Positions 12,035 through 20,559 of a stretch of 64,000 bases of DNA are shown piece after piece. This DNA comes from an uncultured bacterium (GTDB taxonomy: Bacteria > Bacillota > Clostridia > Oscillospirales > Oscillospiraceae): the NCBI GenBank assembly GCA_947383145.1, contig CANDCH010000009.1, positions 28,198 through 92,197 of the forward strand, given 5' to 3'. The notes beneath the pieces were generated by a model. The model did not search any database, was not told the DNA's origin, and saw nothing but the letters and a program-made list of their open reading frames with translations. Position 1 is the first letter of the stretch. Every line of letters begins with the position of its first letter. The translations under genes were made by a program, and so were the position numbers.

Positions 12035-12274
12035 TGGTATCTTCCTCCAATATCGAAAAATTTGCAGCTTCATCAGAATTAGTCAATATATTATACCCCA
12101 TGCGCCGCCGGATTGCAAGAGGTTTTGCGGATTCTCCCCAACAGGTGAAATATGGAGGAAAAATGCCGGCAGCGCCAGAATTGATGAATTCAGCCGGAGG
12201 GAGTTTTGCGGGGTGCCATTAACCCCGTTATTATTGTGATAGCGTTTAGCGGGCTATTGTTAACACAACTGGAA

Positions 12275-12374
12275 AAAAGAGGTACTGCCTAGGATTATCC
12301 CAAGCAGTACCATCTTTCACTTTTTAGGCCTATCGTAGAAGCGGTACTCTTACGGTACGGCTCCCCTTTAAACC
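12275..12374 (+). repeat. Attachment-site repeat, efp side (attL-like)
   Basis: It is identical over 100 bp to 19753-19852. It contains the ntpD terminator hairpin (GGTACTGC at 12281-12288 pairing with GCAGTACC at 12304-12311) and a stop codon in the ntpD frame at 12368-12370. Confidence 0.9.
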
Positions 12375-12480
12375 CCTGCCGGAGCTTCGCCCGAATCCCC
12401 GAAAGCTCTTACGGCTCTAGCGTCTGCCGCCTGCCGCTCCTCAATGGCTTCCTTGAGTATCATGTCCTTCACCTTTATCG
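12368..12480 (-). pseudogene. Displaced or element-borne 3' end of ntpD
   Basis: On the minus strand this stretch reads in frame through the last ~36 residues of an ATPase subunit D: KDMILKEAIEERQAADARAV, then RAFGDSGEAPAGV and stop. The intact gene differs by only a few residues (QAQDARAVKAF, EAPTEV), while many third codon positions differ. So it was once part of a working ntpD of a related but not identical strain. It now has no promoter or N-terminus. Confidence 0.85.
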
Positions 12481-12515
12481 GGTTACGCTATTAGGTAGTG
12501 CTAACATATCACATT

Positions 12516-12585
12516 TAGTCCCATCTGTCAACGCTTTTTCGCTCCTACTCTCCCAAGTAGTCCCAGCCTTTCCCCTCTAGTCCCA
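12516..12585 (+). repeat. Three TAGTCCCA direct repeats at the element end
   Basis: TAGTCCCA occurs at 12516-12523, 12558-12565 and 12578-12585, between the att core and the integrase remnant. Multiple short direct repeats at this place are typical of arm-type integrase binding sites. Confidence 0.6.
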
Positions 12586-12608
12586 ACCTAGAACGGGTAA
12601 AAAGACGG

Positions 12609-12645
12609 TAAACCCGGTAGCCCTATCCCAAAGCTACCGGGTTTA
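12609..12645 (-). terminator. Terminator of the integrase remnant
   Basis: The perfect 13-bp arms 12609-12621 and 12633-12645 enclose an 11-base loop. On the minus strand CCGTCTTTTTACC follows. It starts 10 bases after the integrase stop. Confidence 0.88.
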
Positions 12646-12654
12646 CCTATCCCA

Positions 12655-13150
12655 TCATACTGCCTTGCCAGTGCTGGGAAATGGAATAATGATAGTCGGA
12701 TGATTTTCTTTCTCGTCTGTTTCAATAAACTTATCAATCTCCCCCAGCTTATCAATCTGCTTTTCTTTCGTATCCTCCAACAGGTGAATGTAGATATTGT
12801 ACGTCGTTTTGACATTGGCGTGTCCCAACTGCTCACTGATTGCCTTAATATCCACTTCAGCCTCAAAGCACCGAGTAGCGTATGCATGGCGTAACGTGTG
12901 CATAGTCGCTCCCTCAATGCCAGCTTTCTCATAGATTCTGTTCAAGACCTCTTTAATGTTTCCATACTGTACAATGTGATTGCGGCTATTGAGGAATACA
13001 AGCCCATCCTCCTGCCATTCTTCCCCAAGAGCCTCGAACCTCTCTTTCATGGATTCCTTATGTTCCCTCAATATCTCCACCAGTCCAGCAGTAATAACCA
13101 CTTTACGCTTGCTGGATTTAGTCTTGCAGAAGTTTTGAACCTCCTGCTTT
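12655..13150 (-). pseudogene. Tyrosine integrase, N-terminal part deleted
   Basis: The C-terminal catalytic half is intact: HTLRHAYATRCFE (HxxR box), SEQLGHANVKTTYNIYIHL (LGH and the Tyr nucleophile), and upstream KTKSSKRKVVI, where integrases have their beta-strand region. The arm-binding domain, the core-binding domain and the segment with the first catalytic Arg are missing. Going upstream the frame runs straight into the excisionase gene, with no start codon for a full protein (the first plausible start, near 13101, would give only 148 residues). The upstream limit near 13150 is my estimate of the deletion joint. The enzyme cannot be active. Confidence 0.85.
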
Positions 13151-13298
13151 GTGGTACACGAAAAGCTGGGAAATCTTTACTATGTACCAGCTCATATGTC
13201 CTATTCCTCGACAGCCCTAGTACATTCCCTATATCAGAAGGTGTGAGAACCATTGGTAACATTTCTGGATTCGTCACAAGCCTATAATTTTTATTCAT
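13068..13298 (-). pseudogene. Excisionase-like helix-turn-helix protein, fused to the integrase deletion joint
   Basis: The ATG at 13298 has GGAGG about 6 bases before it. Residues 1-50 resemble the MerR-like DNA-binding fold of small excisionases: VLTPSDIGNVLGLSRNRTYELV, then HSKDFPAFRV, where the family continues with a Gly-Lys/Arg-rich wing. Here the sequence turns instead into PQSRRFKTSARLN, the integrase coding sequence in a shifted frame. So one deletion removed the end of xis and the start of int. The truncated product may still bind DNA. Confidence 0.75.
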
Positions 13299-13708
13299 AA
13301 TTACCTCCATTTTTAATGTTGATAATTTGACTTTATATTACTTTTTTAATATGTACATATCACCCCCATTTCTATGTAGTACGAGAAAGACAATACGATT
13401 GTATTGGCAGTAATGTAAAGAGGCGTACTACTCCTGTAAATTTACCAGTTTCCTAATTTTAGGCACAATATAAACTTATCAAGGTACACGTCTTTCTTTT
13501 GGGCTGGCTCCCTGTCCTCTTTACAGTTGTTAGTATGCCATACATCGTTTCCCTTTTATATCTCCCTATATATTTTCTACTATGTAAACTGAAATTACTG
13601 TAATGTAATGTTATAGAGATAATGATGTAATGCTTTTCCAGGCTGTGCTATTCGTATCAATGAAAAATAAGAAAATAGTGTTTGATAATTCCATCAAACA
13701 CTATTTTC
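13299..13708. other. AT-rich intergenic region of the element
   Basis: About 410 bases lie between the excisionase remnant and the 218-codon frame. Apart from the terminator at 13671-13708 I see no frame with a ribosome site. It probably holds the promoter of the xis-int unit, but no clear -35/-10 pair stands out. Confidence 0.45.
13671..13708 (-). terminator. Terminator of the HTH-like gene
   Basis: The perfect 16-bp arms 13671-13686 and 13693-13708 enclose a 6-base loop. On the minus strand TTATTTTTC follows. It abuts the stop codon at 13709. Confidence 0.9.
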
Positions 13709-14349
13709 TCATTTTTCCTGCTGTTTTAACTCCACGTATCGCAACAGTGTACTAGCTATATCCAGTTGTTTTTCCAACCCTCGCACATATTTCTGTAATA
13801 CCTCTGGTCTGCACCTCTCAAGTCGGGTTAGGCTGATATTGTCCAGCCAGTTTATTCTCCCTAAAATTTCTTCTTCTATATTTACATCCGTTACTGCTTT
13901 ACCACTTTTCAAGTAAACTGCAAAATAGTATAAGTCTGCATTTTTGAGTAAGTCAACATCGCTTTCCACCATCTGATCATAAAGATTCTTTTCAAATGTC
14001 TTTGCCCCTTCAATATTCACTTCTCGCAGCTCAAATAATCTCTGCCAATCTCTACGTGAAATTGCTTCAAAGTGAAAACAGTCTTTCCCCTCAAAAATTT
14101 CACTGCGTACACCTGTCTCAACTACAAGTCGCTTTAACTCCTCTTTTGAAAAACGTACAGGCTCCCCGCGAATAACTCTTGTGTAGCGTTCACGGCTCAT
14201 ATGAAAGGCTGCATAGATTGTCTGCCCTTCTGAACCTTTCTTCGCACGTCCACGTAGTCTCTGCCACATTTTACGCATGACAAGAAAATTGATTTGCCTG
14301 TTAAGCCTCTGCCGCTCTTGTTCCTCCCTGTTGCTCCTTTGCCCTGACA
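13709..14349 (-). CDS. Unknown element protein, possibly a DNA-binding regulator
   Basis: I prefer the ATG at 14349 (MSGQRSNREEQ), since GGTGGAGGTGGCAGGG precedes it; a GTG at 14364 is also in frame. The 213-residue product is basic at the N-terminus (NREEQERQRLNRQINF). At about 30-85 it has a segment (IYAAFHMSRERYTRVIRGE) that looks like the recognition helix of a phage-repressor type fold, with no clear family match. The rest is helical and Leu-rich. It has its own terminator. Its AT content is that of the element, not of the core genes. A repressor of the element is possible but unproven. Confidence 0.65.
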
Positions 14350-14490
14350 TCCCTGCCACCTCCACCTATACATTAAATTATAGTATAGCTGATTTGGGGC
14401 AGTTTGGCAACCTGTTTAAACACTCCTGCCATTTGAAACATTTGAAACATCCAAATCAAAAAACCTCAATTTTTGGTAATGTGGTAATTT

Positions 14491-14530
14491 CAAAAAAGAT
14501 ACCCAGCCTAATTTTTTAGACTGGGTATCT
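14491..14530 (-). terminator. Terminator after the 47-residue membrane gene
   Basis: AGATACCCAGCCTAA (14497-14511) pairs with 14516-14530 with one mismatch. On the minus strand TTTTTTG follows. It lies 4 bases after the stop codon. Confidence 0.85.
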
Positions 14531-14533
14531 CTT

Positions 14534-14677
14534 TCACTCGTTCCGCAGTTCCTCTAAACTCTCTCGCAGTATCAACACAAATTCCCTTAACAACTCTATT
14601 AACTCATACAGTAGGTATAGCAGAACCACAAGCCCACAACACATGAAGCCTACTATAAAATCAGAGGAAGCGGTCAT
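14534..14677 (-). CDS. Small single-helix membrane protein, 47 residues
   Basis: The ATG at 14675-14677 directly follows the TAA of the 167-residue gene (TAAATG), with GAGGGGGCGG in the end of that gene as ribosome site, and a terminator follows its TGA after 4 bases. The product begins MTASSDFIVGFMCCGLVVL, continues with a hydrophobic run to about residue 24 (LYLLY), then an amphipathic charged tail (ELIELLREFVLILRESLEEL). This is a one-pass or holin-like small membrane protein. No family is recognised. The tight coupling says it works with the gene upstream. Confidence 0.7.
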   Translation of the reverse strand: MTASSDFIVGFMCCGLVVLLYLLYELIELLREFVLILRESLEELRNE

Positions 14678-15181
14678 TTAGACCGCCCCCTCTTTATCGC
14701 TCCTGGGGTCTCCTGTGGCCTCGCTCGTCTCCACCCCCTCATGGATTACCACCTTTCCCTTTTCGTCTACTCTGGCCCCTCCTACGCTTATCAGGGATAG
14801 CAATGCTTTCAGCCTATCAACGTCTACGACCTCCAGTTTAAACCGATTGCTCACCAGCTCATAACGATCTCCAGCCTTGCCGCCTTTGATAACACGGGTC
14901 ACAGCGAAATACTTGCTAACGCCACTGTCCTCGTCTTCCTTAATCGGAGTAAACGTAGCAAGCCTCGTTTTCGACAGCAGTCCAGTTGTGAAGTTTTCGT
15001 CCATCACGACCTCGCCAGCCTCGTTGACGCATACGCCATTGATACGCTCTCCGTTGGCAATCTTGGCTTTGATTTGCTTGTCACTGTACCAGGTGAAGTC
15101 CCTGCTCTGATTCAGATAAACGGCCCAGCCCTCACGACGTTTACTCAGCTTTTCCTCAAAGATAACAGTAGCTTTGCACAT
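14678..15181 (-). CDS. Unknown element protein, 167 residues
   Basis: The ATG at 15181 has TAAAGGAGAAATG upstream, a strong ribosome site. The protein begins MCKATVIFEEKLSKRREGW and is mixed alpha/beta with no signal peptide or helix spanning the membrane. A conserved-looking middle (GERINGVCVNEAGEVVMDEN) and an acidic end (GDPRSDKEGAV) can be seen. I do not recognise a family. It is the first gene of a two-gene unit with the small membrane protein and is probably cytoplasmic. Confidence 0.7.
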   Translation of the reverse strand: MCKATVIFEEKLSKRREGWAVYLNQSRDFTWYSDKQIKAKIANGERINGVCVNEAGEVVMDENFTTGLLSKTRLATFTPIKEDEDSGVSKYFAVTRVIKGGKAGDRYELVSNRFKLEVVDVDRLKALLSLISVGGARVDEKGKVVIHEGVETSEATGDPRSDKEGAV

Positions 15182-15761
15182 TTTTCATTTCTCCTTTAAT
15201 TTTATTGTTTGAAAAGTTTTCTTTTCCCTTTCAACAAAACCATCTTAACGCTGGGGTCATTGATGGGCAAGACGTGATAGTTTACGGAAAAGAAAGCTTG
15301 AATTTAGAGGGGTTGCCGGATTCATTTTATCTAATAAACCCATAGCTGTTTTTTGTTTGACAAATGGCATTTCTTACATTGCTTTCTATATTGTCATTTT
15401 AGGCATTTTTCCATTCTGAATGTTTTGTGTATGTAGTCTTTTTTCTTTTCATAACTATCATTCTTATTGCTACACTTCACAAAATCCACATACCTATACA
15501 TTTTTTCTACAACCCTATTTTTTCCCTTTCAATCTCCCATTTTTCAAAAAATAACCTACTTGTAAATTTCAGTTCTAAAATTAACTTTTTTAGAAGGTAT
15601 TTCACTTTCTTGTAATTTAATGGTTGTCAAAATAAACATAAAAATTAAATGTTTCAAATCACATAACTAGCCTATTTGGAGATTAAAAACACAATGCTTT
15701 CTGTCTTTTCAAAATGAGTATAAAAACAGGCCAGACGTTTTTACATCTGGCCTGTCTGCGC
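15182..15761. other. AT-rich intergenic region without a supported gene
   Basis: This 580-base stretch is strongly AT-rich. A 62-codon plus frame at 15427-15615 has no ribosome site and a composition expected by chance. A short open minus stretch (15202-15300) ends just before the ribosome site of the next gene but lacks a usable start. The terminator at 15726-15755 belongs to the 79-residue gene. Confidence 0.5.
15721..15755 (-). terminator. Terminator after the 79-residue gene
   Basis: The perfect 10-bp arms ACAGGCCAGA (15726-15735) and TCTGGCCTGT (15746-15755) are followed on the minus strand by TTTTTA. It ends 7 bases from the stop codon. Confidence 0.88.
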
Positions 15762-16001
15762 TTAATGCTTATTAGGTGTTTTTTTCTTTTTAGGTGGATT
15801 CAAATTCCATATGTCAGCAAGTATGTCTATCTGTTCAATGACATATTTTTTTGCTCGCTCTTTCCCACAAATTGGTATAACACTTCTCTGTACCGGCTGA
15901 CGATTGATCCCACATCGTATTTGAAAATAGCAAGCATATACTCTGCCGGGATTATCATATTCCACTTGAATACAAACCTCTATGCCCTTCCTCTTTATCA
16001 T
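15762..16001 (-). CDS. Small basic unknown protein, 79 residues
   Basis: The ATG at 16001 has AAAGGAGCTGTTTAAC before it. The product has a beta-rich start (MIKRKGIEVCIQVEYDN), several Cys (CYFQIRCGIN and IPICGKERA) and a Lys-rich end (NPPKKKKTPNKH). It carries its own ribosome site and terminator, so it looks real, but it matches no family I know. The basic tail suggests binding to nucleic acid. Confidence 0.6.
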   Translation of the reverse strand: MIKRKGIEVCIQVEYDNPGRVYACYFQIRCGINRQPVQRSVIPICGKERAKKYVIEQIDILADIWNLNPPKKKKTPNKH

Positions 16002-16073
16002 GTTAAACAGCTCCTTTCAAAAAATATACCCTAATTTGAAAAGAGTGCTATTTTTAACAGAACTATATAAACT

Positions 16074-16110
16074 AAAAAAGTGCTATAGCCTAAACTACAG
16101 CACTTTTATA
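16074..16110 (-). terminator. Terminator of the lipoprotein gene
   Basis: AAAAGTGCT and AGCACTTTT pair around a partly paired loop (TAG with CTA). TTTTTTAG follows on the minus strand. It is about 40 bases after the stop codon. Confidence 0.85.
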
Positions 16111-16148
16111 AAATGACAATGCTAAATGTATAAAATTATTCGATATGT

Positions 16149-16808
16149 TTAACTAATGCTTTCCCAGTCTTCTACTATTTCATCCCAAGTATATTCACCC
16201 TGTATTTCCTGTGAATTGGGATTACTACGAACGGGGTCAACCGGGTCTTCATAATCATCCGGGATCCATAACCCATCTACTACTTGACCGCCACCTCCAT
16301 TAAGCTGGGAACCTACACTTTCGATAAATTCAACTGTTACTTGGCCGGTTCCAACTACTTCTCCATTGGCGATGGCTTCTTGTTGCTGTTTAAGAGCTGC
16401 GTCTATTTGAGACTGTATTTCTTCATCGGTGACTTGACCACCATTAGACTGTGAAGGTGTCTCTGTCTGCCCTCCGCTGGGCTTGCTCTCCTGCGGTTTA
16501 TTGGCTGTCGGTGTGTTTTCAACCGCTGGAGTTGAAATGCTCTGTTGCGTTTCCTGTTCCTCTGGAACTGTTAAACTCTCCTGCGGCTGTGTTTCTTCTG
16601 TGGGTTTCTCTGTCTCAACAGGTGCAGTTGTTTCTATTGGCTTGACTTCTTCCGATTCAACAGGTGTCTCTGGCTCTGTGCTCGCTGGCTCCGTCTGTTG
16701 TGTTTCTTGCTTTGGTTCCTCTGGCTCCTGTGCCTGTTGGCCTCCACAGGCCACCAGCGAAAGAACCAAGGCCACACTTAACACAAGTGCCAAGTATTTA
16801 CTTTTCAT
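16149..16808 (-). CDS. Secreted lipoprotein with a long Pro/Glu/Thr stalk
   Basis: The ATG at 16808 has GGAGGAAAGC before it. A signal peptide ends in the lipobox SLVAC, with Cys21 as the lipid site. Residues 25-130 are a repetitive, unstructured Pro/Glu/Thr/Gln stalk (EPEEPKQETQQTEPAS). The last 85 residues are acidic and Gly/Asn-rich, ending YTWDEIVEDWESIS, with no known domain. The protein should stand on the outer face of the membrane. The leader holds a hairpin at 16845-16885. A role in surface exclusion or attachment of the element would fit, but nothing proves it. Confidence 0.75.
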   Translation of the reverse strand: MKSKYLALVLSVALVLSLVACGGQQAQEPEEPKQETQQTEPASTEPETPVESEEVKPIETTAPVETEKPTEETQPQESLTVPEEQETQQSISTPAVENTPTANKPQESKPSGGQTETPSQSNGGQVTDEEIQSQIDAALKQQQEAIANGEVVGTGQVTVEFIESVGSQLNGGGGQVVDGLWIPDDYEDPVDPVRSNPNSQEIQGEYTWDEIVEDWESIS

Positions 16809-16844
16809 GCTTCCTTTCCTCCAAAATTATTCTTAACAGGTTCC

Positions 16845-16885
16845 GCATGAACTGCCCTGACTGGTTTGCCAGGGACAGTTCATGC
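16845..16885. repeat. Hairpin in the leader of the lipoprotein gene
   Basis: GCATGAACTG (16845-16854) pairs with CAGTTCATGC (16876-16885), and CCCTG pairs with CAGGG inside. It ends 37 bases upstream of the lipoprotein start. Confidence 0.6.
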
Positions 16886-16988
16886 TTTCCCTGCCAAGAA
16901 TAACAAGAGCAGTGCGACGAGTTGTGTAAAACCCATCACACTGCCTGACATTTCTATCAAAGCAAACACAGCTATTTTTCCTGCCCTA

Positions 16989-17105
16989 TTGCTAAATCTG
17001 ATTCAGACAGGTATAATAATACTGGGTGCAGAGATTTCTCTGCTGTGCTGGGTAGCCGAGATACCCGTACAGCCTTGGAGAGGGTTGCCGCCCTCTCCAA
17101 GGTGC
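16989..17105 (+). ncRNA. Candidate structured RNA with its own promoter
   Basis: TTGCTA (16989-16994), a 17-base spacer and TATAAT (17012-17017) form a good promoter. From about 17024 three stems follow closely: GCAGAGA/TCTCTGC (17028-17043), GGGTA/TACCC (about 17050-17066) and a perfect 12-bp stem (17073-17084 with 17091-17102). No convincing coding frame covers them. It could be a regulatory RNA of the element. The 3' end is unclear, as no T run follows the last stem. Confidence 0.4.
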
Positions 17106-17225
17106 CTGCAATCGTTATCCTTGTACTATCTATTTTACCGCCTGCGCTCCTATCCGTCAATAGCCTATCTCAAAATCTCCCTATAGGCAAGGTCACTTTA
17201 TCCCCTTTTTCTTTCGTTGAGTGGT

Positions 17226-17239
17226 AGGGTATATACCCT
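17226..17239. promoter_or_regulatory. Perfect 14-bp palindrome, possible operator
   Basis: AGGGTATATACCCT is its own reverse complement. It stands alone in a gene-poor part of the element and could be the binding site of a dimeric repressor. Confidence 0.35.
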
Positions 17240-17282
17240 ATGCTCTGTTTTAAGGTTCCATCTATCAATAAGAATTGCATAG

Positions 17283-17325
17283 CAGTACAAAAAGACAGGT
17301 ACAGTAAATAAATTGCTGTACCTGT
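17283..17325 (-). terminator. Terminator-like hairpin
   Basis: The perfect 10-bp arms ACAGGTACAG (17295-17304) and CTGTACCTGT (17316-17325) are followed on the minus strand by CTTTTTG. The transcript it would end is not identified. Confidence 0.55.
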
Positions 17326-18022
17326 TTCTTCTGCTTATGCTGATTTTTACGAAACTGTCTATTTTTCTTTCTGATAAACTCCCGACACTTTTTCATATGT
17401 TGTTTTCTCTGCTTAATGTTATTATTGAGAAATTCCAAATTGTCTCACTTTTCTGCCTTTGTATCATCTATCTATTGCGCATTGTTTATATTTTCTTTCT
17501 TATTTGCTACAAACACCAGATAAAAGTTTTAAATCCTAATCTACAAGTTTATTGTATCAAATTGTAAATGTAAATCGTGTGTCATTACATTGATTCAAGG
17601 ATTTAATTGTATTAGTATATATTTTCACTACTATGTACAACAATCCAGCTTATAACCCTAAATAATATAAAGTTTGCAATCTGAATTTCCTTAGATATGT
17701 ATAATTTCCTCTATGTTTGCTTTGTCATAAAACAGGTTTTTTACCGCACTCTTTAGATATTGTTTTCTATCAGAAATGTTGCGGCCAATGTTTCAGATAA
17801 TTGTCTATCTTTCATGACAAATCTATGATAGAGGTATCTTTATTAAAAGTTCTCAATTTATACCATGTACCCACTACCTCAACTTTTTTACACTTCTGGA
17901 TTTTAAGCCTTTTTCACCCCACTGTATCACCGAAAAATCTATAATGTATTGCAAATAAAATCCCCCTCTGTATCCTGATTTTTTCAAAAGCCGATACCAT
18001 TTTTTATTTTTAACCAAATATT

Positions 18023-18060
18023 CACAGCCAGCACCTAAAACCTTTTAAGTGCTGGCTGTG
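18023..18060 (-). terminator. Hairpin after the resolvase gene
   Basis: The perfect 12-bp arms CACAGCCAGCAC and GTGCTGGCTGTG lie 30 bases after the resolvase stop. The T content after it is modest. Confidence 0.65.
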
Positions 18061-18090
18061 TAATGTACTCTATTTTTTTATATCTGATTA

Positions 18091-18666
18091 TCAAATATCT
18101 ATAACCATGTTATCCTCCTCAAACTCACGCACTTTCCGATACCACGTTGAGCGTGAAATCCCTAACTGCTTCGCTCCTTTACTCGCTGATAACTTCCCCT
18201 CTTTCACAGCGAGATAAACATCCTCGAAAGTATCAACTGCTTTCTTTGGCCTGCCGTTCATCCTCCCCTCTGCCTTGGCGATCGCTATCCCCTCGGCCTG
18301 ACGGTCAAGTATTGTGTCTCTCTCAAACTCCACCAATCCCGCAAAGACTGTCAGCATAAACTTTCCTGCATTCGTATCTGTATCAATCTTTTCTTTCTGA
18401 CTTACAAAACGTACCCCTTTCTCTTTTAATGCTGCTGTCAAATTGAGTAAATCTTGTGTGTTCCTAGCAAAGCGGGAAAAGGATTCAACGACTAAAGTAT
18501 CACCCTCCCGCACAAAATCCATCATCTTGTGAAGTTCGGGCCTCTCTGCATCCTTTCCGCTCATTTTGTCAGTATAAACCTTTTCAACATCTAACTGTCT
18601 CATAAGTTCATCCTGACGGGCTGTGTTTTGCTCTTTGGTGCTAATGCGTACATAACCGACTTTCAT
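18091..18666 (-). CDS. Serine recombinase of the resolvase/invertase family
   Basis: This 191-residue protein has the size of Tn3/Hin-type recombinases. The catalytic domain (1-135) starts MKVGYVRISTKEQN, with the nucleophile Ser10 in RIST, and has the Arg-rich SFSRFARNT. A short C-terminal helix-turn-helix ends it (SASKGAKQLGISRSTWYRK). I chose the ATG at 18666 rather than upstream codons because the fold begins there and GGAGCG precedes it. It probably acts on a site in its upstream region, where repeats occur (18690-18850). Its job may be resolving multimers or inversion of DNA of the element. Confidence 0.9.
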   Translation of the reverse strand: MKVGYVRISTKEQNTARQDELMRQLDVEKVYTDKMSGKDAERPELHKMMDFVREGDTLVVESFSRFARNTQDLLNLTAALKEKGVRFVSQKEKIDTDTNAGKFMLTVFAGLVEFERDTILDRQAEGIAIAKAEGRMNGRPKKAVDTFEDVYLAVKEGKLSASKGAKQLGISRSTWYRKVREFEEDNMVIDI

Positions 18667-18689
18667 TGTAATCGCTCCTATCAACTAGT

Positions 18690-18850
18690 TTTTCAAATGA
18701 AACTGAACACCGAAAGCGTCCCGAAAGTGTTGCGCCCGGAAAGCTATACCATTCAAAGCGTTTCAGACTCCATCCTTTTTTACCCTCTGGAAGTGTCCCG
18801 AAAGCTCCGCTTCCGTTTTCAAAGCGCCTTTTTGGTGCGTCTCATTTGAT
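18690..18850. promoter_or_regulatory. Possible recombination site (res) upstream of the resolvase
   Basis: GTCCCGAAAG occurs twice in direct orientation, about 78 bases apart (near 18718 and 18797). TCAAATGAAAC near 18694 is matched by its near reverse complement GTCTCATTTGA near 18838. Resolvases commonly use sites of 100-150 bp directly upstream of their own gene. This is inference from position and repeats. Confidence 0.35.
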
Positions 18851-18993
18851 ACCTAAACTTCATTTTAGAGCAATCATACATGACCCAATAAAAGTTGAAA
18901 CATTTGAAACATACGCACAAAAAAGAAGCACTGCCCAGAAGAAGCCCCAAACAGTACTCCTTTACATCTTGAACAGAGCTATTAAAATTTTTA

Positions 18994-19022
18994 TAGACAT
19001 TGAAAATAAAAAGTAGTATAAT
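18994..19022 (+). promoter_or_regulatory. Promoter of the NYN gene
   Basis: TAGACA (18994-18999), a 17-base spacer and a perfect TATAAT (19017-19022). Transcription would start about 15 bases before the NYN start codon, leaving a short leader with AAAGGAG. Confidence 0.8.
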
Positions 19023-19044
19023 GTCTAAAGAAAGGAGTTTTGAT

Positions 19045-19596
19045 ATGGACAAAGTTGCTATTTTTATTGATGGTGCCTATCTTTCTAAAGTACTAAAGGA
19101 GAGCTTTTCTTCTACACAGATTGATTTCTCAAAACTGAGTACTTTTCTTGCAAATGGCGATCCCATTCTACGTACATATTATTATAATTGTATGCCATAT
19201 AAATCTCCTGCTCCGAGCAGTGGTGAAATTGCTAGATATAATAATATGCAAAGATTTGTTACTTCACTTGAAAAACTTGACCGCTATGCAGTTCGACTTG
19301 GCAAATTAGAAAATAGAGGACGCAAAGCAGATGGTACGCCAATTTTCCAGCAAAAAAGGGTGGATATTTTATTAGGTTGCGATTTGGTCCTTTTAGCTGC
19401 TAAGCAACGTATTGGGAAAGCTATACTGATTACTGGAGATAGTGACTTTATTCCTGCTATTGAGGTTGCAAAAAATGAAGGCGTTGAAATTGAATTAGTA
19501 TATGATTCTGCGCATCATCCTCATAGTAGCTTAACTTTAATTGCTGATGTGAGAAAAGAGTTATCTCAAGCTGATATTGATTCTGTCAAAAAGTAA
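19045..19596 (+). CDS. NYN-domain (PIN-like) putative ribonuclease
   Basis: This 183-residue protein of the NYN/LabA group starts at the ATG at 19045, after AAAGGAG. It shows the acidic metal-binding positions of the PIN-like fold: Asp in AIFIDGAYLSK near the N-terminus and ILITGDSDFIPAI at about 130-142, where Asp residues bind Mg2+. Related proteins are RNases. It is the only plus-strand gene of the element, with its own promoter and terminator. It sits at the att end, as cargo genes often do. Toxin, defence or RNA-processing roles are all possible. Confidence 0.85.
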   Translation: MDKVAIFIDGAYLSKVLKESFSSTQIDFSKLSTFLANGDPILRTYYYNCMPYKSPAPSSGEIARYNNMQRFVTSLEKLDRYAVRLGKLENRGRKADGTPIFQQKRVDILLGCDLVLLAAKQRIGKAILITGDSDFIPAIEVAKNEGVEIELVYDSAHHPHSSLTLIADVRKELSQADIDSVKK

Positions 19597-19701
19597 CAAG
19601 AGAAAATTTGAATTTACAGTTGACTTTTTCTCCTTTTTTGCATATAATAAGTTATGTAAATAGTTGCTACATTCATATCGAATGATAGCGTAAATGAAGA
19701 T

Positions 19702-19730
19702 GGCCCCCTCTAATGAGGGGGCCCTTTTGT
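19702..19730 (+). terminator. Terminator of the NYN gene
   Basis: The 9-bp arms GGCCCCCTC and GAGGGGGCC around TAAT are followed by CTTTTGTTTTG. Confidence 0.9.
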
Positions 19731-19752
19731 TTTGTTGATATAATTAGCACAG

Positions 19753-19789
19753 AAAAGAGGTACTGCCTAGGATTATCCCAAGCAGTACC
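19753..19789 (-). terminator. Terminator of the V-ATPase operon
   Basis: GGTACTGC (19759-19766) pairs with GCAGTACC (19782-19789). On the minus strand TCTTTTC follows. The same hairpin exists in the other att copy. Confidence 0.85.
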
Positions 19790-19852
19790 ATCTTTCACTT
19801 TTTAGGCCTATCGTAGAAGCGGTACTCTTACGGTACGGCTCCCCTTTAAACC
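19753..19852 (+). repeat. Attachment-site repeat, ntpD side (attR-like)
   Basis: It is identical to 12275-12374. It includes the working ntpD stop (19846-19848) and terminator. Confidence 0.9.
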
Positions 19853-20559
19853 TCCGTCGGAGCTTCGCCCGAATCCCCGAAAGCCTTTACGGCTCTAGCG
19901 TCCTGCGCCTGCCGTTCCTCGATGGCTTCCTTCAAAATCATGTCTTTGACTTTCATCAGCCGGGTGGTGGTGGAGCGGTCGTTCTCATCCAGCTTCATGG
20001 TGATATAGCGGATGCTGTCCTGGGTGTCGGGGATGACCACGTACTCCAGCGCGTTGACGCGCCGCCGGGTCTTTTCAATCTCTTCCGCCATGAGCTGGGC
20101 CGCCTTCTCGGTCTGGGCCAGCTTCAGCATGTCCTGGAACACCTTGCCCAGGGCGGCCACCGCTCCGTCCAGCTCGCCGCTGGTGGCGGCAAAGCCGTAG
20201 GGGAAGATATCGCCGGTGTCGTCGGTGCGGGTTTGATAGTGATATACCGGCACGTTGACGCTCATGATGTTCTGGAAGGTCATGGTGAGCTCCACCGACT
20301 GCTTGGGATACATCAGCGCCTGCTCCATGGCCTGGGCGCTCATCAGCGCGGAGGCCACGGTGAAGGAGCTGTGCACCCGCATCAGCTCCTCCTCCACCTG
20401 GGCGCGGAGGGAGCGCAGCTCCCGCACGGTGTCCAGGAACTGCTTCATCAGCTCGTCCCGCTTGTCCTTGAGCAGCTTGTGGCCCCGCTGGGCGGTTTTC
20501 AGCTTGCCCTTCAGCCGGGTGAGCTCCATTCGGGTGGGGTTGACCACGGTGTTTGCCAT
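19846..20559 (-). CDS. ntpD: V-type ATP synthase subunit D
   Basis: This 237-residue central-stalk subunit rotates inside the A3B3 head and couples it to the membrane ring. The N-terminus ANTVVNPTRMELTRLKGKL and the long N- and C-terminal helices are typical. The last gene of the visible operon, it starts 13 bases after ntpB. Its 3' end and terminator lie inside the attachment site of the integrated element, which leaves the frame intact. In Enterococcus hirae ntpH and ntpJ follow ntpD; here the element follows. Confidence 0.93.
   Translation of the reverse strand: MANTVVNPTRMELTRLKGKLKTAQRGHKLLKDKRDELMKQFLDTVRELRSLRAQVEEELMRVHSSFTVASALMSAQAMEQALMYPKQSVELTMTFQNIMSVNVPVYHYQTRTDDTGDIFPYGFAATSGELDGAVAALGKVFQDMLKLAQTEKAAQLMAEEIEKTRRRVNALEYVVIPDTQDSIRYITMKLDENDRSTTTRLMKVKDMILKEAIEERQAQDARAVKAFGDSGEAPTEV

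Follow-up and report, generated by a model that had tools for sequence, protein, structure and literature searches.

An integrative element at the 3' end of the V-type ATPase gene ntpD and its putative exchange of the NtpD C-terminus

The 3' end of ntpD, the gene of V-type ATPase subunit D, adjoins an integrative element in an uncultured bacterium of the Oscillospiraceae. We analyzed this locus in a stretch of 64,000 nucleotides, in the following called the window (GenBank assembly GCA_947383145.1, contig CANDCH010000009.1, positions 28,198 to 92,197), which is part of a single unbroken 92-kb contig in a genome of 58 contigs that is 85% complete. A pair of direct repeats of 205 bp, 12275-12479 and 19753-19957, is spaced by 7478 bp and identical at 188 of 205 positions. 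The pair contains a perfect run of exactly 100 bp (12275-12374 = 19753-19852), which covers the last ntpD codons, the stop and a terminator, and all 17 mismatches are confined to 12375-12476. On the plus strand of the window, 71 30-mers occur more than once, each of them inside this repeat pair, and the window's own genome, queried with 12260-12520, returned two places only, both being the repeat copies. The near copy is the end of ntpD itself, while the far copy reads in frame from the codons for KVKDM to the shared ntpD stop, its translation being KVKDMILKEAIEERQAADARAVRAFGDSGEAPAGV followed by the stop. GC content per kb is 0.35-0.45 between the copies (13000-19999) versus 0.61-0.68 in the flanks. 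The two copies delimit an AT-rich element of 7.48 kb that abuts the 3' end of ntpD. An initial annotation of this DNA, made from the letters alone, had described the perfect repeat with its spacing, the diverged in-frame ntpD C-terminus with the shared stop in the far copy, and an integrative element at this gene end; repeat comparison and translation confirmed the former two, and Pfam content and relatives support the latter.

The features of the locus are collected in Table 1. The product of ntpD matches ATP-synt_D of Pfam (3.8e-62) and the NCBIfam model of V-type ATP synthase subunit D (317.6 bits at a cut-off of 290). With the closest solved relative, PDB 3aon_A (217 residues), the alignment ends at query residue 208, three residues before the end of 3aon_A, and the NCBIfam model stops at residues 211-212. 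The motif KVKDM is the end of the aligned part in the solved bacterial NtpD. Precisely here, both repeat copies share the core AGGTSAAGGAYATG (12461-12474 and 19939-19952), where host ntpD reads ATGAAGGTSAAGGAYATG, the codons for MKVKDM.

Table 1. Features of the ntpD locus and the adjoining element (positions within the window).
Feature	Position	Strand	Basis and remarks
Identical part of the far copy	12275..12374	-	Last codons, stop, arm-like motif, terminator; 100% identical to 19753-19852
Spare ntpD C-terminal tail and stop	12367..12474	-	In frame, same stop
Far (integrase-side) junction	12461..12482	-	CCCGATAAAGGTGAAGGACATG; element end CCCGATAA, then shared core AGGTGAAGGACATG
Candidate integrase-side arm of the attachment site	12483..12620	-	TTTACC..GTTCTAGG and TTGGGA/TGGGACTA repeats, aligned by eye with G018, G023, G114; putative role
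Tyrosine integrase remnant, C-terminal catalytic part only	12655..13170	-	Pfam Phage_integrase 74-169/172
HTH_17 protein, excisionase-type	13170..13298	-	Pfam; about 48 residues alike, then cut off beside the integrase remnant
218-aa element protein	13709..14365	-	Relatives in G023, G114
167-aa element protein	14678..15181	-	Relatives in G016, G023
Lipoprotein-like element protein	16149..16808	-	Sequence; related start in G016; weak sporulation-lipoprotein match
Serine resolvase/invertase	18091..18684	-	Pfam Resolvase 1.1e-40
NYN-domain protein, cargo	19045..19596	+	Pfam
Candidate post-stop arm and strong terminator	19753..19845	-	Arm AGTACCGCTTCTACGATAGGCCTA, 19 nt past stop; terminator 19789-19759
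ntpD C-terminal tail in current use	19846..19952	-	Core 19939-19952
ntpD, V-type ATPase subunit D, target gene, complete	19846..20559	-	Pfam, NCBIfam

The window proteins were compared with 40 stretches downstream of ntpD in relatives, and 17 further loci and four longer stretches were added; genomes are denoted by G and loci by L with a number. Set aside were ntpD places at contig edges (e.g., G004), second, lower-scoring copies of subunit D, and most order-level genomes; G005, G009, and G026, which belong to the window's genus, gave no ntpD match. Element genes adjoin ntpD in four of the 40 stretches. G023 holds a complete element of 8.9 kb, composed of resolvase, two shared unknown proteins, excisionase (xis), integrase and a second ntpD tail, and G018 shows resolvase, xis, integrase end and, again, a second tail. 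The resolvase and three other window proteins are found in G016 up to the contig end, with the resolvase end of the element kept, and the sequence arm past the ntpD stop (see below) and a resolvase fragment are all that is left in G028. Outside the window's genus, G114 contains a complete 11.9-kb element with a far ntpD tail and the gene order resolvase, lipoprotein, 222-aa protein, xis, 208-aa protein, methyltransferase, integrase. Its integrase matches that of G023 at 67% over 385 residues, and dam, xis, and resolvase stand in matching order. Both full-length integrases reveal the Phage_integrase, SAM-like and central domains of Pfam. Finally, a contig of Oscillibacter sp. RGIG6644 (L136) preserves the far junction along with 24 residues from the integrase end. 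The search for other elements ending at ntpD, which the initial annotation had proposed, was thus rewarded by the elements of G018, G023, and G114 and the remnants in G016, G028, and L136.

The distribution of the integrase is in accordance with this picture. Against 42 genomes of the genus, the integrase remnant of the window gave five matches at E <= 1e-15, those in G000, G018, and G023 at 65-100% and the other two at 28-31% identity; all three genomes with an integrase of at least 65% identity have the element at ntpD. The G023 integrase detected three loci among the genome contigs, one of which is L135 (33%), and no relative among the viral contigs searched. Two loci are mentioned for their position. 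The arm-bearing ntpD end of G030 (L079) is followed, at a distance of 1.5-6 kb, by what we take to be two large serine-recombinase-like proteins and a MobC-like protein, i.e., another mobile element in the same spot. A second subunit D gene (L173, G106:C32), 75% alike to that of the window, is cut by the contig end just past the KVKDM codons.

The junction itself is conserved. The integrase-side element end plus core, CCCNATARAGGTSAAGGAYATR, occurs exactly in three of the 42 genus genomes (G000, G018, and G023), the same three that possess this integrase family. Allowing up to two mismatches extends the set to 12 of 42, the extra places being mostly the ntpD core itself, and a reversed control pattern yielded one match, in G005. 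L136 has a junction of the same type, CCCCATAAAGGTCAAGGACATG, and G114 reads CTCCATATAGGTCAAGGATATG. Common to the four elements and L136 is thus a junction at the core upstream of the tail, away from the stop.

Which of the two tails is native can be assessed in G023 and G114, for which empty sites exist at species distance (G029 and G007 for G023, G108 for G114). The far tail of G023 comprises 82 nt, as do the tails of G029 and G007, which lack the element, and is identical to each at 74 of 82 positions; its post-stop flank agrees at 125/147 positions with G029 and at 115/140 with G007, and the gene that comes after it is the one starting 56-59 nt past ntpD in both. The near tail of G023, by comparison, has 85 nt, of which 80 are identical to arm-bearing G030, and G029 and G007 are outside its nine best matches. 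Along this line, the far tail of G114 (97 nt) has the length of that in element-free G108 (72/97 identical, flank 93/145), and the gene following it is 78% identical to a G108 gene about 160 bp past ntpD. As the spare tail, together with its terminator, is in both genomes contiguous with the gene that comes after ntpD in element-free relatives, we assign the far tail to the host and the near tail to the element. The far tail of L136, when aligned with G104 by tblastx, is split between two frames, which fits a displaced tail no longer in use. GC content was considered as a further marker of element origin: the tails of G023 (0.40), G030 (0.44), and G016 (0.46) contrast with gene bodies of 0.64-0.65, which is suggestive and yet non-diagnostic, given 0.61 in the G018 tail and 0.52 in arm-free G024 and G001.

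Because the spare tail appears to be the displaced host end and the near tail to have come with the element, the crossover of the family would fall in the KVKDM codons (window 12461-12474 / 19939-19952). If the window followed the course of G023 and G114, its spare tail would be the displaced pre-insertion end and its tail in current use a gift of an element. The initial annotation had considered it simplest to place the crossover in the identical stop/terminator region, with some 106 spare bases seemingly carried along by the element from another strain; the tails of G023 and G114 and the shared upstream junction speak against this placement, and in both genomes the spare tail turned out to be the host's. 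Its alternative, which regards the diverged copy as the host's original end, fits the family, whereas the tail origins in the window stay ambiguous. The same applies to the empty site it had pointed to: such sites are at hand for G023 and G114, but no element-free sister strain of the window was found among the relatives compared.

Taken together, it is highly probable in our judgment that a tyrosine-integrase element attaches at the last conserved ntpD codons, donates its own tail, and displaces the host tail to the integrase side. The attachment site would consist of the last conserved codons, L-M-K-V-K-D-M, and the circular form would carry, beside the core, its own ntpD C-terminal tail, a stop codon, an arm site and a terminator. 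Crossover at the core, presumably catalyzed by the integrase, would split host ntpD and fuse the host part in frame to the element's tail. NtpD would remain complete with an altered C-terminus, the operon would still end in a terminator, and the old host tail would come to lie, useless, on the far side next to the integrase. The core is located where the conserved part of NtpD ends, and the exchanged stretch is mostly an extension without counterpart in the solved enzyme; such a site may therefore be a safe one, where diverged tails are exchangeable.

Motifs on both sides of the junctions are compatible with this scheme. Past the ntpD stop, TTTACCGCTTCTA (up to two mismatches) is present at a distance of 16-45 nt in seven of 41 ends (G000, G016, G018, G023, G028, G030, and G036) and in two of 16 further ends with flank (G107 and G114). 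A similar motif precedes the far junction by 110-130 bp in G000 (two mismatches), G018 (one), and G023 (three), and is visible in G114. The background is 16 of 6657 tiles of 130 bp, with the element loci counted in. These motifs look like integrase arm sites, which would then flank the core on either side. The terminator past the ntpD stop folds at -42.2 kcal/mol (z -4.8). A promoter-like pair, TTGACA-17-TATGTT (12503-12531, minus strand), is situated inside the integrase end and reads outward over the junction; G018 (TTGACA-17-TAGAAT) and G114 (TTGATA-17-TAGATT) have similar pairs in the same place, and a promoter scan found 26 versus 19 expected. The far tail contains AAGGTGAAGG before an ATG, resembling a ribosome site, such that a peptide of 31 codons could be made.

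Not all observations agree with the displacement of the host tail. In the window, the far copy has an arm and terminator of the element type, 100% identical over 100 bp to the near copy, whereas the tails themselves show 16 differences in 106 positions. Had an element simply entered a pristine site, the far end should have kept the native terminator, as in G023 and G114, and here the window differs. In addition, the far copy is followed by EF-P, which was found in 41 of 45 genomes, though not after ntpD in any of the 40 stretches; in the flank beyond the far copy, the EF-P promoter region alone matched relatives, and the intervening ~135 bp (12140-12274) had no match among the loci fetched by then. 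This flank has thus been either rearranged or misjoined. At the 16 differing tail sites, G063 agrees with the near copy at eight and with the far copy at seven, and G015 at ten and four, respectively, so that neither of the window's tails stands out as native. Elsewhere, the far tail of G114 is slightly nearer to G102 (78/95), the flank of which is without match, and the two tails of G018 are identical (106/106) and mosaic-looking: the first half is close to element-free G032 (50/53), the second closer to arm-bearing G036 (44/53) than to G032 (31/53). By sequence, G018 shows that NtpD tails do become mosaic.

The arm and terminator at the far copy could be explained by an earlier visitor, by gene conversion or by misassembly. 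Serial visits are a variant of the displacement model, according to which tail, arm, and terminator of an earlier element were already in place when the present one inserted in front of them. Traces of this kind exist: G107 has the arm (up to two mismatches) and terminator past ntpD, in a stretch of 19.5 kb without any match to the element proteins of the window or of G023, G028 retains its arm and resolvase fragment, and tandem arrays at a single site are known for SGI1 (PMC5704250). On the other hand, full identity over 100 bp beside 85% identity of the tails exceeds what this history needs, and gene conversion is simpler; we give serial visits a chance approaching, and not quite reaching, one half. 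Misassembly would mean that short-read assembly of the metagenome exchanged the flanks of two structures across the 100-bp repeat. The true continuation of the far tail would then be the element, in circular or tandem form, and the EF-P flank would belong behind the ntpD tail. The repeat is about as long as common assembly k-mers, the genome is fragmented and incomplete, EF-P beside ntpD is unique among the relatives examined, and both copies bear the element-type arm. Since, however, the contig is unbroken over 92 kb and an active circle is hardly to be expected with a truncated integrase, we regard such a swap as improbable. Crossover within the stop/terminator block, with the spare tail as element DNA from another strain, would agree with 12275-12374 / 19753-19852 being the sole perfectly identical stretch and with the somewhat greater nearness of the current ntpD tail to G015. 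It is in conflict with the spare tails of G023 and G114, which are contiguous with host DNA and match element-free relatives, and with the upstream position of the junction in four elements and L136. The G023 and G114 comparisons led us to reject it for the family; for the window, where the rejection is not a formal one, it seems very unlikely. Least credible, and practically negligible, is the notion that the ntpD end was simply duplicated in tandem and that the AT-rich genes between the copies have nothing to do with it. Such a duplication would account for the direct repetition of a gene end, but neither for the integrase, excisionase, and resolvase genes between the copies nor for the displaced native ends and the recurrence of junction and gene order in other genomes. 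The displacement of the host tail thus remains our preferred reading, with the window probably sharing the history of its relatives.

The window copy of the element looks defective and not self-mobile, as its integrase is mostly lost and the region from xis to the integrase is missing. The remnant aligns with residues 241-384 of the 385-aa G023 integrase (64.6% identity; 73.6% to that of G114). Relative to G023 and G114, a protein of ~210-230 residues, a Dam-type methyltransferase and the integrase N-terminus have been lost between xis and the integrase C-terminus; the missing integrase part is the one that we take to hold one of the catalytic arginines. The 218-aa protein has no Pfam, PHROG, or NCBIfam match and a weak match to a type II restriction-enzyme profile (REase_II, 1.4e-4); beside this REase_II-like protein, the window lacks the methyltransferase present in the G023 and G114 elements. 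No family match was obtained for the 167-aa protein in Pfam, PHROG, NCBIfam, and a further profile scan. The NYN protein weakly matches NYN and HEC-09 of PADLOC and is possibly defence cargo. Two 30-bp repeats, TTGAAACATTTGAAACAT.., at 14433-14462 and 18895-18924 (83% alike) are possible binding sites near the element ends, and similar GTTTCAA runs come after the terminator in G016, G018, G028, and G036.

Pfam recognized no relaxase or transfer domain in ten window proteins and eight each from G023 and G114, among which three unknown protein families remain. Likewise, scanning ten proteins with PHROGs revealed no phage structural, packaging, or replication genes, the matches being limited to integrase, invertase, methyltransferase and weak lipoprotein/spanin-like ones. 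A single record of the phage collection matched weakly, at the resolvase and over 5% of the query, and the plasmid collection gave no match. Because no relaxase or phage structural gene was recognized, we do not file the element as an integrative and conjugative element (ICE), an integrative and mobilizable element (IME), or a prophage.

The mechanism as such is already known, while ntpD as its target appears to be undescribed within the open-licence literature searched, where no paper was found to report integration into ntpD or any V-ATPase subunit gene; within these limits, the literature agrees with the initial annotation, which had called ntpD not a commonly described site. The available portions of two accounts of IMEs and ICEs (PMC5704250, PMC4701971) do not name it as a target; in the former these contain neither 'ATPase' nor 'ATP synthase', in the latter no 'ATP synthase' and three instances of 'ATPase', two of those passages being on VirB4 and a segregation ATPase. 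Large tables, e.g., the TIGER/Islander database (PMC12424338), may hold an ntpD target unremarked. With the present findings, a V-ATPase rotor gene is added to the protein genes serving as integration sites, and several independent junctions provide a precise anatomy of the attachment site. They account for the variable, sometimes mosaic NtpD tails in this group and caution against taking the copy on the gene for the native one, as this role may belong to the diverged copy at the far end. Beyond mobile-element biology, the interest is modest. It is conceivable, as a tentative extension, that the element family trades NtpD C-termini between species, each visit replacing the stretch past KVKDM, with scars and gene conversion giving rise to mosaic tails; if so, the element would be a vehicle that diversifies, and possibly tunes, the end of a rotary-motor shaft.

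Among known systems, the closest principle is that of the Islander islands, where tyrosine-integrase islands split the target gene and then restore it (PMC4383910). Here, too, the target is split, sequence of the island restores the gene, and the two ends are recognizable by the regenerated gene on one side and the displaced fragment on the other. In contrast to the tRNA and tmRNA targets of Islander, the target is a protein gene, of which a 106-nt tail and the stop would be swapped for a diverged version in the window. IMEs and ICEs are known from the 3' ends of housekeeping genes, i.e., rpsI, rplL, rpmG, guaA, trmE, and lysS (PMC5704250, PMC4701971). The ntpD element resembles them in having a tyrosine integrase and an accessory helix-turn-helix gene at one end and in occupying the 3' terminus of a conserved gene, the product of which is kept. 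It differs in that neither complete copy, that of G023 or that of G114, contains a relaxase or transfer gene recognizable by Pfam. Streptococcal ICEs are flanked by repeats of 12-54 bp (PMC4701971), as compared to a homologous stretch of 205 bp here. Lastly, a terminator at the end of Tn916 acts as an insulator (PMC11658703). The strong terminator at the end of the ntpD element could likewise shield element genes from host transcription, but it is located directly after the restored target gene.

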